Assembly: GCF_001318295.1 (NCBI RefSeq)
Contig: NZ_CP012665.1
Coordinates: 496,001 to 560,000, forward strand
Length of the DNA stretch: 64,000 bases
Source of the DNA: Candidatus Xiphinematobacter sp. Idaho Grape
GTDB lineage: Bacteria; Verrucomicrobiota; Verrucomicrobiia; Chthoniobacterales; Xiphinematobacteraceae
Direction: 5' to 3'
The stretch's first letter is position 1; each line of letters begins with the position of its first letter. Positions 23,953 to 55,549 of the stretch are shown here, one piece after another. The position numbers and the translations under genes were made by a program. The notes beneath the pieces were generated by a model that had not been told where the DNA came from, searched no databases, and was given only the letters and a program-made list of their open reading frames with translations.

Positions 23953-24375
23953 ATGGAAAGGGAATTCTTTACTCTGTCCGAAGCAGAAACTCAAACAGTG
24001 GGTGAGGCTCTTGCGGCGAAGCTCTCCACTGGCAGTGTGCTCTGTCTAGAAGGACCCATGGGGGCTGGAAAAACTCAGTTTGTTAAGGGGTTAGCTCGGG
24101 GACTAGGATTTTTCGGAGAAGTGACAAGTCCCACCTTCCCCTTAATTCATGAATATGAGGGTGGTCGTCTCTTCTTGGTCCACTTTGATTTCTTTCGCCT
24201 AGATTGTGAGAAAGCAGTAGAGGAGTTAGGATTTAGTGATTACCTGGACCAGGCCATACTTGCCATTGAATGGGGAAGTAAGTTCCCTGCACTCTTGCCC
24301 TCTGGTACACGAACTATTCTGTTTAGGATTTTAAAAAATGGGGGGCGATGTATTGCCTTTTCGCACACACCTTGA
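23953..24375 (+). CDS. tsaE: tRNA t6A biosynthesis ATPase TsaE
   Basis: 140 residues from ATG 23953 (a TTG at 23935 would add six). P-loop GPMGAGKTQ, TSPTF, and a FDFFRL/EWGSKF core typical of the YjeE family. TsaE drives ATP-dependent turnover of the TsaB-TsaD complex. The stop overlaps the likely tsaB start by a few bases, so the two are translationally coupled. Length is normal. Confidence 0.93.
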   Translation: MEREFFTLSEAETQTVGEALAAKLSTGSVLCLEGPMGAGKTQFVKGLARGLGFFGEVTSPTFPLIHEYEGGRLFLVHFDFFRLDCEKAVEELGFSDYLDQAILAIEWGSKFPALLPSGTRTILFRILKNGGRCIAFSHTP

Positions 24376-24989
24376 AAGTATTGGCCATAGAAACTTCGAC
24401 TCACCAAGGGAGCATAGCTATCCGGCAGGAGGGCAAGCTCTTGTTGATAGAACGCTTTGTACATCCCAGAGGCGGTGTGGAAGTTTTGTGTCGCACCTTA
24501 GAACAGATAATAAAGAGAGAGGGGCGTGTGCACCGCATTGCTGTTGGAATTGGACCGGGTACTTACAATGGGATTCGGGCTGCTATTTCCCTGGCTACGG
24601 GTTTAAAAATTGCCTGGAGGATTCCCTTGTGTGGTATCCCTTCCATTCTTGGGATAGAGTCCCTTACAGAGCGCTATGCGGTTGTCGGAGATGCGCGGGG
24701 AGGGTCGTTATTCTTCGGTGCTGTTTCTGGGAGACATCTAGAAAACCTTCAGCTCTTGTCTCATACAGAGTTTCAAAGGAAGCTCTACATTTGGAGCCAA
24801 ACTTGTAAGGATCCTGTCTATGCAGCCGCTCCAGTTCCAGCGCTTCCAGAGCTACGTGTGCTTGCTCCCAGTGCTGGGAAATTGGCCTTTCTTGCGGAAG
24901 AGTACCCGACTTCAGAGCAAGGGCCTTCCCCCCTCTACCTGAAACCCCCACACACTACTCAGTCTACCTCTTCTCAATTTATCTTTTAA
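24372..24989 (+). CDS. tsaB: tRNA t6A biosynthesis protein TsaB
   Basis: 205 residues from TTG 24372, which overlaps the tsaE stop (TTGA) and gives the family opening KVLAIETSTHQGS; ATG 24348 is an alternative adding eight residues. ASKHA fold with GIGPGTYNGIRAAISLATGL. TsaB is the inactive paralogue scaffolding TsaD (12.4 kb) and TsaE. The C-terminus is rich in Pro, Thr and Ser and somewhat short relative to E. coli, as in many TsaB proteins. A large decayed region follows. Confidence 0.9.
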   Translation: MKVLAIETSTHQGSIAIRQEGKLLLIERFVHPRGGVEVLCRTLEQIIKREGRVHRIAVGIGPGTYNGIRAAISLATGLKIAWRIPLCGIPSILGIESLTERYAVVGDARGGSLFFGAVSGRHLENLQLLSHTEFQRKLYIWSQTCKDPVYAAAPVPALPELRVLAPSAGKLAFLAEEYPTSEQGPSPLYLKPPHTTQSTSSQFIF

Positions 24990-25059
24990 CTAAGACATAA
25001 CTGGTTGGTAGGTCACTTAAAAAGTCCCTTTCCTTTAAAAGTTCCTAAACCTAGTAGGG

Positions 25060-26330
25060 CACCCCGGTGGTTGCAGGAAAGACAGCGGTTCCTGCTTCAC
25101 GAGACTCACAACGCACTTGTCAAGAGTGCAGATCCCCACGCGACGTGGGCAAATCGCTGACCGCGACGGCATCCCGCTAACACAGGTTAAAGTCAGTCAT
25201 AATTTAGCTGTCAGATTCCCCGTGCTCTTTAGTCAGACTGACGAAGAGGTACTTGCATTTGCTAAGCAACACATCCTTTCTGGAAAGGACATTCTTGAGT
25301 GTTACAAAAGGCACAGCATTTCCCGTTGAGCATAGCAAGAGGACTTTGCAGCCTGCAGAAATTTACTGTCCTAAGTGGAATGGTAGCTCCCAGATTGGTG
25401 GCTGCGACCTATAAACCAGGATCCTATTATCCACATGGCAGGTTATTAGCAGCTAGTATAGTGTTTGGTTGTGTGGGGAAAGAAGCTCCCCTTTCTATCC
25501 GTATCCTTACAGTGGAAATGGAGGTTTCATCTCCCTAGAAAGTGAGGGGCGGCCAAAGCCTTATCTCAACATCCCTTCCACTCCATGTTGCCAAGGGCCT
25601 TTCATGCAGTTTATCCTCCTGGTTCCACTTTTAAAGCGGTAACAGGCCTCGCCAGCACTTTTCAATAACTCCATTGCCTTGCACACAGCCGTTTCGATTG
25701 TCCAAGCGCCTTTAGAGTTGGAAGTTCTGCCTTTCACAACTGGAAAAAGTATGACGCTGGAACGCTGGATTTCTTCGAAGCTTTGGTCTAGTCTTGCACC
25801 GCCTGGTTTTACCAGGTCGTTCCAAAAACAGGAGCTGTTTCAGTCGTTACCCTTGCTCAGAGCTCGGCTAGTAAGCAGGTGCAGACCATCGACAATCAGA
25901 TTGTAAATGCCTATCAAGATTGTGTCTAGGGGGGCGTTTTGACATCCCGAGAGGGATTTGTCGGGTTTGTAAGGGCTGCGCTTGCGGAGATAACAGGAGG
26001 GTACAAACCGGCACGGCACGCCAAGCACAGGTTTAAAGTTACCACGGTTGCTGCTAAATGGGGATAGAGCTTAATGGAGGCCAGGGACCAAGTCCGAGGA
26101 ACGAGCTTTCGCCTGGTGTGTTGGTTTCTCCCACCTACAAACTGTCCTCGGCACGCCTTGCAGCAATCTCTGAAGGAGAAGCAGGCGACAGCGCCTTTCA
26201 CTGTGGATTCATAATTGCAGCACCGCTGATCGCCAAAGTGTTTGCCACTATGTTTTGGCGGAGTGCAGAGAGACACGATGGTAAAGACAATGGAGAATAT
26301 ACAGAAGATGGTGGTGTGAAAAGAAGCGCG
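25060..26330 (+). pseudogene. Decayed class B penicillin-binding protein (PBP2/FtsI type)
   Basis: Pieces of a PBP appear in order but in different frames. WLQERQRFLL is the N-terminal membrane-proximal region (~25080-25110). RRGQIADRDGIPL is the conserved dimerisation motif (~25135-25180), and YYPHGRLLAA the next block (~25415-25445). AVYPPGSTFKAVTGLAS at 25606-25656 contains the STFK active-site motif. FHNW ... EALV-stop-SCTAWFYQ at 25732-25815 has TAG replacing a conserved Gln, and SxN changed to SCT. A TAA also interrupts between the last two blocks. No KTG motif survives. Two nonsense codons and several frameshifts make it non-functional. MrdA (cell elongation) is the best guess, FtsI the alternative. 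Confidence 0.85.
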
Positions 26331-26383
26331 GAAAAATTAAAGGCGACTTACAGATTTGGGTTGTAACAACCTGCTGAGACGAG

Positions 26384-26589
26384 TAGCAAAGCACTCACCG
26401 TTGAGGAACTCCGGCTGGACGCACGCATCGGTCGGAGCTAGTCCGGGGTCTCCTCCGCGAACATTACAACGCTTTTTTCAAAATTTCGGGAAGCTTGCTA
26501 GAGTTTCTGCATATCAAACGGAACAACTCCCAGTGAAAGAATTTGGTTGCATGCTGACATGCAAAGGCTGTGGACCGACAAATACTTAG
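26384..26589 (+). pseudogene. Unidentified coding remnant downstream of the dead PBP gene
   Basis: One frame reads protein-like segments LTVEELRLDARIGRS, SANITTLFSKFREAC and ERIWLHADMQRLWTDKYLD, separated by two in-frame TAG codons and closed by TAA near 26589. The even spread of charged and hydrophobic residues is unlike random frames here. I cannot name the family. It may belong to a second gene lost together with the PBP. Confidence 0.35.
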
Positions 26590-27007
26590 ACTAACAGGAC
26601 ACACTTCCTCACTAGGAGTACACAAAAATGCACATCGCAATTCGCAGCCTAGTTAGGAGCGCAGTAGTCCAGGACTACAAGTAAAACTCACGACAATTGC
26701 AACCCCTTGTGAAAGGAAAAAGAAAGCTATTAAAAAGAAAGTTATTTCTAGCTGCTTACTTAGATGCCCTAAGAATAGGAGTATCTCCAAGAGTCACGCT
26801 AAACTGGCCACGTAAGGATGTGTACATACTTGGCTGATAAAATGTCCGAAATTCTAAAATTTACTTGCACCTCTCCCTATGGGACGAGTAGCCTCCCCCC
26901 TCAGTGCGGGTGCTCGGAAGAGGGGGTGGTCCCTTGGTCCCTGTATGCACTAGGTGAGTGGATTATTGTTTTTTCCACGGAGGGTCTTTTCGCAATTTCT
27001 CAACTTG
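26590..27007. other. Leader/intergenic region before the str operon
   Basis: 418 bp with no supported gene. A hairpin CCCCCTC (26896-26902) / GAGGGGG (26920-26926) with a 17-base loop lies ~80 bases before rpsL and could be a terminator for upstream transcription or a leader attenuator. The promoter of the ribosomal block should be here, but I cannot point to convincing -35/-10 boxes. GGAGGGT at 26979 is too far from the rpsL ATG to be its ribosome-binding site. Confidence 0.4.
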
Positions 27008-27418
27008 ATGCCAACAACTAACCAGCTCGTCCGTAGTGGGCGAAGCAGAGTCACTGTAAAGTCAAAATCGCCAGCGCTTGCCAAGTGCCCTCAGCGCCGT
27101 GGCGTTTGCGTCCAGGTGATGACGCGGACGCCGAAAAAACCGAATTCCGCGCTACGAAAGGTGGCCAAAGTACGTTTGACCAATAGTCAGGAAGTAATTG
27201 CTTACATCCCTGGTGAGGGGCATAATTTGCAGGAGCACTCAATTGTATTGATACGTGGGGGCCGTGTGAAAGACCTTCCAGGAGTACGTTATCACATTGT
27301 GCGGGGCACGCTGGATAGTCTCGGGGTGGACGGCCGCCGCCGCGGTCGCTCAAAGTATGGGTCGAAACGTCCAAAACCTGGAACTGAGAAAGAAGCTCAG
27401 GGGAGCAAGAAAAGGTAG
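27008..27418 (+). CDS. rpsL: 30S ribosomal protein S12
   Basis: 136 residues from ATG 27008 ([11 protein letters not shown]); an 18-codon in-frame upstream extension is rejected. The decoding-centre loops [19 protein letters not shown] and [12 protein letters not shown] are intact. The C-terminal tail [12 protein letters not shown] is the segment duplicated at 14521-14576. First gene of the str-S10-spc-alpha array, 8 bp before rpsG. No Shine-Dalgarno tract. Confidence 0.97.
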
Positions 27419-27426
27419 ATTAGTTT

Positions 27427-27900
27427 ATGTCACGGAGACACAGAGTCCTTCATAAAGAGGCCAAGCGCGATGCGCGATATGCCAGCCCATTGGTTGCCCG
27501 TTTGATTAATACTGTCATGCGTTGCGGAAAAAAGTCAGTTGCGGAATGCATTGTTTATACTGCTATTGAACAATCACGTGAGGGCAGTAATGCCATTGAT
27601 CCCTTAGAGACTTTTAATAGGGCAGTTGATAACATAAAGCCCCGTCTAGAGGTCAAATCTCGCCGTATGGGTGGAGCTACTTACCAGGTGCCCGTTGAGG
27701 TGAATCCTGATCGTCAGATTGCTCTTGCCATTCGATGGATTGTTATGCTCGCAAGCAAGCGGAAAGGACTACCAATGGTAAAGGCACTCGCTCACGAGTT
27801 AAAAGATGCTGCGGCAGGGCAGGGGAGTGCCATTAAAAGGCGGGACGATATGCATAAAATGGCTCAGGCCAACCGTGCGTTTGCACACTTTCGTTGGTAG
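27427..27900 (+). CDS. rpsG: 30S ribosomal protein S7
   Basis: 157 residues, normal length. Family core RLINTVMRCGKKSVAE and the conserved VEVNPDRQIALAIRW and QANRAFAHFRW end. S7 nucleates the head of the 30S subunit and contacts the E site. Lies 8 bp after rpsL and 49 bp before fusA; the upstream sequence is AT-rich without a Shine-Dalgarno tract. Confidence 0.97.
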   Translation: MSRRHRVLHKEAKRDARYASPLVARLINTVMRCGKKSVAECIVYTAIEQSREGSNAIDPLETFNRAVDNIKPRLEVKSRRMGGATYQVPVEVNPDRQIALAIRWIVMLASKRKGLPMVKALAHELKDAAAGQGSAIKRRDDMHKMAQANRAFAHFRW

Positions 27901-54226: not shown

Positions 54227-55549
54227 CTACCCACTTTCTAGGTGAGGCGCATTTGAAGGAGTGTCTATGGTATGTTCTCCGCGGATGAGGTCAGAGAGTT
54301 TTTCCCGCTCTCGAACAAGGAAAGATCTGGAATTGTCTACCATAACCTCTGCTGCAAGAGGACGGGAGTTATAACGGGAAGACATAACAGCACCATAGGC
54401 ACCAGCACTCATAAGTGCTAAATAGTCTCCAGGCTGACAATTAGGGAGAGTGGTATCCTGCAGGAAGAAATCTCCGCTCTCACAGATAGGCCCAACAACA
54501 TCCGCTGTACCTGCAGCAAGATGGGAGGAGTGTTTAAGAGGAACCACTTGATGCGGCGCTTCATAAAGGGCAGGTCGAATGAGATCGTTCATGCCGGCGT
54601 TCACAATCACGAAGCGCTTGGTAAATTTCTTCTTGACCTGGATTACTTGTGTGACAAGTACGCCAGCATTGCCAACAAGGCTGCGGCCAGGTTCGAACAA
54701 GATTTTAACTCCAAGGGAGGAAAGGAGTGGTAGGAGGGCCGCAGCGTATCTCTCCGGGGTTAGAAGTTTTGCATCTGCCCCTTCCCACCACTGTGGAGTT
54801 CCACTTTCTAGAGCTTCTTGATAGACAATTCCCATACCCCCCCCTATGCTGAAAGACTCAACTCCGTAACATTCCTTGAGACGGACGACAAGAGGGGATA
54901 GCTTTTCGACAGCCTCGACGAAGGGTCGACAATCTAGAATCTGGGAACCAATATGGGTCTGGATGCCGCGAATGAAAAGGTGAGGTAGACTGGCAGCGTA
55001 AGCGTACGCTTCTTCAGCGCAGCCCAGGTCAATCCCGAATTTGTTGTGGGCCTTTCCCGTAGTAATGTAAGAATGTGTACCTGCCTCCACGTCCGGGTTA
55101 ATACGCAAGGCTATTGGGGCCCTTCTTCCCAGTTTTCCTGCAATTCTGTTGATAATCTCTAGTTCAGCTTCGGATTCTACAACAAAGCAGTGTACACTTT
55201 CCTTAAGTGCATAGTCGATTTCTTCCTGGGTTTTACCGATTCCTGCAAAGGTACAACGACCAGCACAACCACCGGCCTGAAGGACACGATAGAGTTCCCC
55301 ACCAGAGACAATGTCAAACCCCGACCCTAGCTTAGCGAAAAGATTCAGGACAGCCAGATTAGAATTAGCTTTAACTGCGTAGCAGATTAGGTGGTCTAAA
55401 GGTGCTGAGGCAGCTTCCAAACGCTGGAAATTGTCCCGGATGGTTTGTGCTGAATAGACATAGAGGGGAGTTCCATAACGCTCGCTCAAGTAAGAGAGTT
55501 CCTGCTGTTCACAGCAAAGTGATCCCTTGTGGAAAGCAAAGTGATGCAT
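54227..55549 (-). CDS. lysA: Diaminopimelate decarboxylase
   Basis: 440 residues, alanine-racemase-fold PLP enzyme: Lys60 in CYAVKAN, HNKFGIDL, GIQTHIGSQ, SIGGGMGI, EPGRSLVGNAG, and the substrate-specific CESGDFF motif with the cysteine from the partner subunit. It converts meso-DAP to lysine and is the last step of lysine synthesis. Divergent from ndh across ~150 bp. Confidence 0.96.
   Translation of the reverse strand: MHHFAFHKGSLCCEQQELSYLSERYGTPLYVYSAQTIRDNFQRLEAASAPLDHLICYAVKANSNLAVLNLFAKLGSGFDIVSGGELYRVLQAGGCAGRCTFAGIGKTQEEIDYALKESVHCFVVESEAELEIINRIAGKLGRRAPIALRINPDVEAGTHSYITTGKAHNKFGIDLGCAEEAYAYAASLPHLFIRGIQTHIGSQILDCRPFVEAVEKLSPLVVRLKECYGVESFSIGGGMGIVYQEALESGTPQWWEGADAKLLTPERYAAALLPLLSSLGVKILFEPGRSLVGNAGVLVTQVIQVKKKFTKRFVIVNAGMNDLIRPALYEAPHQVVPLKHSSHLAAGTADVVGPICESGDFFLQDTTLPNCQPGDYLALMSAGAYGAVMSSRYNSRPLAAEVMVDNSRSFLVREREKLSDLIRGEHTIDTPSNAPHLESG

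Follow-up and report, generated by a model that had tools for sequence, protein, structure and literature searches.

A decayed gene for a third class B penicillin-binding protein in the nematode symbiont Candidatus Xiphinematobacter sp. Idaho Grape

In Escherichia coli, the membrane helix of PBP2 (MrdA) is reported to stimulate the polymerase activity of RodA (PMC10449877), and a PBP2-type protein lacking this helix would thus probably work independently of RodA. Candidatus Xiphinematobacter sp. Idaho Grape, the organism studied here, lives in the dagger nematode Xiphinema americanum (PMC4607532, PMC7857533), where published fluorescence in situ hybridisation shows rods; the cells are described as rods 4-7 µm long in the gut and as ranging from rods to cocci in the ovaries (PMC4607532). 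An earlier report, cited in PMC8489844, has the peptidoglycan layer reduced or missing. Four pseudogenes are counted in the genome by PMC4607532, those named being thiazole synthase, spore protein SP21 and UDP-glucose 4-epimerase, and PMC7857533 gives one; the words "penicillin" and "peptidoglycan" occur zero times in the main text of PMC4607532, and the fourth pseudogene of that count could be the one described below. Among the titles and abstract openings listed for class A penicillin-binding proteins (PBPs) or mrdA in Verrucomicrobia, for PBP2 or mreB in Akkermansia, for class B PBPs with a signal peptide and for Xiphinematobacter pseudogenes, none describes this pseudogene or the proposed clade of exported PBP2-type proteins to which we assign it.

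The window is the whole stretch of 64,000 nucleotides that we analysed, bases 496001-560000 of the single 915,884-base contig of this genome, and bare coordinates below refer to it, the pseudogene with its motifs, tsaB and rpsL being on the plus strand. We compared it with a second 0.9-Mb symbiont of the same genus (917,278 bases; hereafter the sister symbiont) and with larger-genome relatives of the same genus group, G001 (2.5 Mb, the nearest of them) and G002 (1.9 Mb, 73% complete). Between tsaB (24348-24989), a synteny anchor with a single match in each of four genomes, and rpsL (27008-27418), an open frame whose start is common to the sister symbiont, lies a pseudogene that a frameshift-aware profile alignment places at 25126-26255, possibly beginning at about 25055 in another frame. 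We are highly confident that this pseudogene is of moderate age and derives from a third class B PBP, a probably accessory PBP2-type transpeptidase that decayed once dispensable, with the MrdA and FtsI synthases kept. Almost every sampled member of the order has this paralogue, for which we use PBP3rd as a working name, alongside MrdA and FtsI. Upstream of rpsL, a separate block (26827-27008) matches the sister symbiont at 74% (176/237, in an alignment that extends into rpsL) and may act as the promoter or leader for the str operon.

The frame from 25063 translates as ...YPPGSTFKAVTGLASTFQ, a stop, LHCLAHSRFDCPSAFRVGSSAFHNWKKYDAGTLDFFEALV, a second stop and SCTAWFYQVV..., with the STFK, FHNW and WFYQ blocks all in that one frame. 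The SxxK motif is intact as STFK (25624-25635) and is followed by an in-frame TAA (25666-25668) and an in-frame TAG (25789-25791), the latter aligning with the invariant Q that precedes SxN (Q380 of the G001 orthologue). SxN itself now reads SCT (25792-25800) and KTG reads KWG (26056-26064), although none of the 10 aligned intact orthologues departs from S381, N383, K538, T539 or G540 (G001 numbering), such that two of the three catalytic motifs are destroyed and SxxK alone is kept. The remnant is without its own N-terminus, the longest plus-strand open frame fully within 25060-26330 is 79 aa (25299-25538), and there is no open frame carrying SxxK, SxN and KTG together, which a functional class B PBP requires. 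When the G001 orthologue was used as a tblastn query, it matched the transpeptidase core, read through two stops, at 25555-25860 (56/103 identical, E=2e-28), the best-kept stretch of N-terminal dimerisation sequence (IPTRRGQIADRDG...) at 25132-25275 (27/48 identical, G001 residues 55-102) and further pieces from 25132 to 26255 in two frames. PF00905 matches at 25582-25836 with one TAG and one TAA inside (27.6 bits versus a cut-off of 22.1). The frameshift-aware alignment used a 16-orthologue profile and extends over 355 of the 610 codons of the G001 orthologue, 177 of them identical, with 10 frameshifts and 2 stops; about 183 residues are missing, mainly in two large deletions around G001 residues 205-307 and 404-475. 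It scored 285.5, whereas 30 dinucleotide shuffles averaged 29.9 (SD 2.9, maximum 35.6) and the reverse complement reached 26.5. An earlier sequence-only reading had described a dead PBP2/FtsI-type transpeptidase gene by the ribosomal block, with the three blocks in one frame, a TAA and a TAG, SxN changed to SCT and frameshifts elsewhere, and all of this is borne out, the alignment standing far above the shuffles and rpsL lying downstream.

PF00905 occurs at exactly three places in the whole genome, namely FtsI (a 592-aa frame), MrdA (a 716-aa frame) and the broken remnant. The intact ftsI sits in the dcw cluster among mraW, murE, murF, mraY, murD, ftsW and murG, and the intact mrdA comes after mreB-mreC-mreD, MreD being called by comparison with relatives as neither Pfam nor NCBIfam matched it. 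Our main tree draws on 19 genomes and contains 47 class B PBPs besides the remnant, lacking the MrdA of G006, G011, G013, G014, G015 and G017 and the FtsI of G006, which was not found. In it, FtsI (18), MrdA (13) and PBP3rd (16) each form one clade with starred support, PBP3rd is the sister of MrdA with FtsI as outgroup, and the remnant groups with the G001 PBP3rd at 100/96; its terminal branch is long (1.12) and its letter composition was flagged, as expected for a pseudogene. The G001 orthologue carries PF00905 (215 bits) and PF03717 (PBP_dimer, 70 bits) and no other Pfam family, so that the ancestral gene has the class B architecture of PBP_dimer plus Transpeptidase without a transglycosylase domain. 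By the NCBIfam model TIGR03423 pbp2_mrdA (cut-off 455 bits), the top model for this orthologue, it is nearly an MrdA, at 451 bits compared with 491 for the 698-aa MrdA of the Idaho Grape genome. The surroundings of the two types differ: within stretches of about 4-13 kb, an mre gene accompanies 12 of 13 MrdA loci, whereas none of the 16 PBP3rd loci has an MreB, MreC or MreD match above 60 bits, the sole mre-type match near them being a weak one (55 bits) to a 590-aa protein.

The gene order in G001 is pgi, tsaE, tsaB and the intact PBP, and the tsaE-tsaB-PBP order is common to the Idaho Grape genome. A complete PBP3rd is present in 16 of the 18 relatives, the exceptions being G002, where a contig ends after tsaB and only the beginning of the gene, and the sister symbiont, where there is none. 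The gap between tsaB and rpsL measures 829 bases in the sister symbiont versus 2,020 here, and over a 939-base stretch of the sister genome that spans the gap and runs slightly into rpsL the PBP3rd profile scored 24.7, compared with a shuffle mean of 26.8. A 151-aa protein encoded downstream of the G001 PBP also found no match in the tsaB-rpsL gap (best E=1.1). Taking MrdA and FtsI as yardsticks, and half of the fourfold-site divergence between the two symbionts as the unit, the remnant's excess divergence over first and second codon positions comes to 0.93 and 0.89 of the unit (bootstrap 0.59-1.41 and 0.60-1.26), or 0.47 and 0.42 on the 103 core codons only (-0.11 to 1.07 and -0.02 to 0.94). 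The raised divergence supports unconstrained evolution of the remnant, and it probably dates the death of the gene to about 0.4-0.9 of the time elapsed since the two symbionts split, from midway to about the split time, assuming neutral fourfold sites and steady relative rates of the three PBPs; the core-codon figure taken alone may leave room for a more recent death. Given this excess, and the absence of any trace in the sister symbiont, "freshly dead", as the gene had been called, is too strong.

Three other explanations were weighed against decay of a third paralogue. The remnant could be the cell's own mrdA, newly dead, with rod elongation lost or taken over by FtsI, and its PBP2-type sequence, the MrdA/PBP2 chains that are the solved structures nearest to the PBP3rd profile, and pbp2_mrdA as top model for the intact orthologue all lean that way. 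Against this, a separate intact MrdA follows mreBCD and exceeds the model's cut-off, the remnant clusters with PBP3rd and not with MrdA, PBP3rd loci show no mre match above 60 bits, and rods have been published (PMC4607532); the intact mrdA and the tree already refute this explanation, and we accord it next to no credence. FtsI is ruled out likewise by the intact ftsI of the dcw cluster and by its separate clade. The choice between MrdA and FtsI that the sequence-only reading had posed thus resolves to neither, since the tree makes the remnant a third paralogue, and of its conditional "if MrdA" the premise falls, for the same intact mrdA and tree, whereas its alternative, reliance on a different class B PBP, stands.

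Loss of frame by frameshift is a classic type of error, which counts in favour of a functional gene misread in sequencing or assembly. Such an error would have to account for 10 frameshifts, the in-frame stops, about 183 deleted residues and two changed invariant catalytic motifs, in a genome for which about 1,290x depth is reported (PMC4607532), and for the absence of the gene from the sister species, and there is virtually no chance that it does. It is also very improbable that the locus is kept for another use, as a short peptide, leader or small RNA for the downstream rpsL operon: the conserved sequence just upstream of rpsL (about 26827-27008) would suit such a role, but it lies outside the remnant, the remnant has no counterpart in the sister symbiont, its position-1 and -2 divergence is raised, and no Rfam family reaches its cut-off over 24900-27500, which counts against a retained small RNA.

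Decay of the third paralogue would then have run as follows. The gene became dispensable in the nematode symbiont, the need for PBP3rd probably being relaxed inside host cells; stops, frameshifts and deletions inactivated it, the remnant is now in the course of erasure in the Idaho Grape genome, and in the second 0.9-Mb symbiont PBP3rd has already disappeared. The loss is ordinary reductive decay, part of a wider genome trimming, and the locus offers a one-gene comparative series, intact in the 2.5-Mb relative, decaying here and erased in the sister symbiont.

The genome search that the sequence-only reading had proposed, for mrdA, ftsI, rodA, mreB and murein genes, found all of them present. 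MreB, MreC, MreD, MrdA and RodA have open frames and FtsW is also present, so the elongation (MreBCD-MrdA-RodA) and division (FtsW-FtsI) synthases stay intact; together with the published rods (PMC4607532), this overturns the idea that rod elongation was lost and settles that the symbiont did not lose it. The lipid II and precursor set comprises the MurA/EPSP family, MurC-MurB, MurD, MurE, MurF, MraY, MurG, Ddl and MurJ, with five Mur-ligase-type proteins, the weakest of which may be another ligase, and two EPSP/MurA-type proteins; FtsA and FtsZ are present as well. A single 793-aa fusion protein (L099:748-3126; about 377747-380125 of contig C1) combines MurC with MurB, and both halves exceed their NCBIfam cut-offs. 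FtsZ (L099:6361-7698) scores 222 bits, below the TIGR00065 cut-off of 295, which suggests fast or unusual evolution.

The transglycosylase domain of class A PBPs (PF00912) occurs nowhere in the two 0.9-Mb symbionts, compared with three places in G001, where class A PBPs are joined by a short frame holding the transglycosylase alone. L,D-transpeptidase-type YkuD places number one in the Idaho Grape genome, none in the sister symbiont and nine in G001 (whose rows include a short tenth protein), and S11 carboxypeptidases two, one and three, respectively. Both symbionts thus have no class A PBP and retain two SEDS/class B pairs, a modest clue to how little cell-wall machinery a rod needs. The hint that the locus speaks to peptidoglycan status proved useful, in that precursor synthesis is kept and all class A PBPs are gone. 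The lysA gene said to be kept is indeed in the window (54227-55549) with its decarboxylase domains; its product converts diaminopimelate to lysine, which by itself speaks neither for nor against a wall.

Turning to the intact orthologues, we read from the alignments that all 13 MrdA rows have a hydrophobic helix and then a KLWYIQ-like segment about 30 residues ahead of RGxI, whereas this helix-plus-W segment is found in none of the 16 PBP3rd rows. Most PBP3rd rows instead open with a brief hydrophobic segment, in many cases with small residues behind it that would fit signal peptidase cleavage, and carry the conserved stretch PxWETQKQARTY ahead of RGxI. This signal-peptide reading comes from a hydrophobicity scan and inspection, not from a trained predictor, and four of the 16 rows (G005, G006, G008 and G017), whose starts are uncertain, show no strong hydrophobic start (maximum 1.25 over the 75 scanned residues), perhaps owing to those uncertain starts or to long low-complexity N-termini. 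Intact PBP3rd is most likely exported by a Sec signal peptide, and it would cross-link peptidoglycan stem peptides as an accessory enzyme, working without the MrdA-type membrane helix used for RodA coupling. The intact orthologues thus look like a class B PBP type in which a signal peptide replaces the usual anchor, and this type looks worth biochemical study.

Beyond the order, the PBP3rd profile was run over 39 genomes of the phylum, in which one family of six genomes (f13) scored 530-607 bits and the other genomes outside the order at most 442.5. Of 30 loci, 26 were entered into a phylum-wide tree, 8 were dropped for having no RGx[IL]xD motif and 18 were placed; the four f13 proteins, all that were added, join PBP3rd at 100/99. 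Among the matches listed from named records, the closest are Spartobacteria and unclassified Verrucomicrobia (52-55%), then one metagenome-assembled genome each of Verrucomicrobiales (43%), Akkermansiaceae (41%) and Akkermansia (39%), the remainder being at most 35%; from these identities f13 is probably Akkermansiaceae. In f13, the PBP3rd profile gives no second PBP2-type match of MrdA size, the next matches lying at FtsI level (150-162 bits). A PBP3rd-type enzyme appears to be the sole PBP2-type protein in this Akkermansiaceae-like family (L071, L074, L070, L075 and L105), and the active site reads YPPASTFK in all five loci. We tentatively propose, as a possibility short of probable and drawn from sequence comparison, that Verrucomicrobiota contain an undescribed clade of exported PBP2-type transpeptidases that have a Sec signal peptide in place of the MrdA helix, could work without helix-mediated SEDS coupling and serve as the sole PBP2-type enzyme in an Akkermansiaceae-like family, and that Xiphinematobacter stays a rod on two SEDS/class B pairs without PBP3rd or any class A PBP. 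This clade is the most interesting lead from the locus.

Compared with MrdA/PBP2 (TIGR03423), PBP3rd has the same PBP_dimer and Transpeptidase domains and a PBP2-type sequence, but it forms its own clade, a signal-peptide-like N-terminus replaces the MrdA membrane segment, and the copy here is dead. With FtsI/PBP3 the intact PBP3rd shares the class B domains and the SxxK, SxN and KTG motifs, whereas FtsI forms a distant, separate starred clade and this genome has an intact ftsI of its own. Judged by gene content, the symbiont falls among the peptidoglycan-intermediate bacteria as defined in PMC8406291 and PMC5814848, in whose main texts Xiphinematobacter occurs zero times: as in those bacteria, lipid II genes and SEDS plus class B PBPs are kept and class A PBPs are absent. 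Such Rickettsiales are described as round or irregular (PMC8406291), whereas Xiphinematobacter is described as rod-shaped in the gut of its host (PMC4607532).
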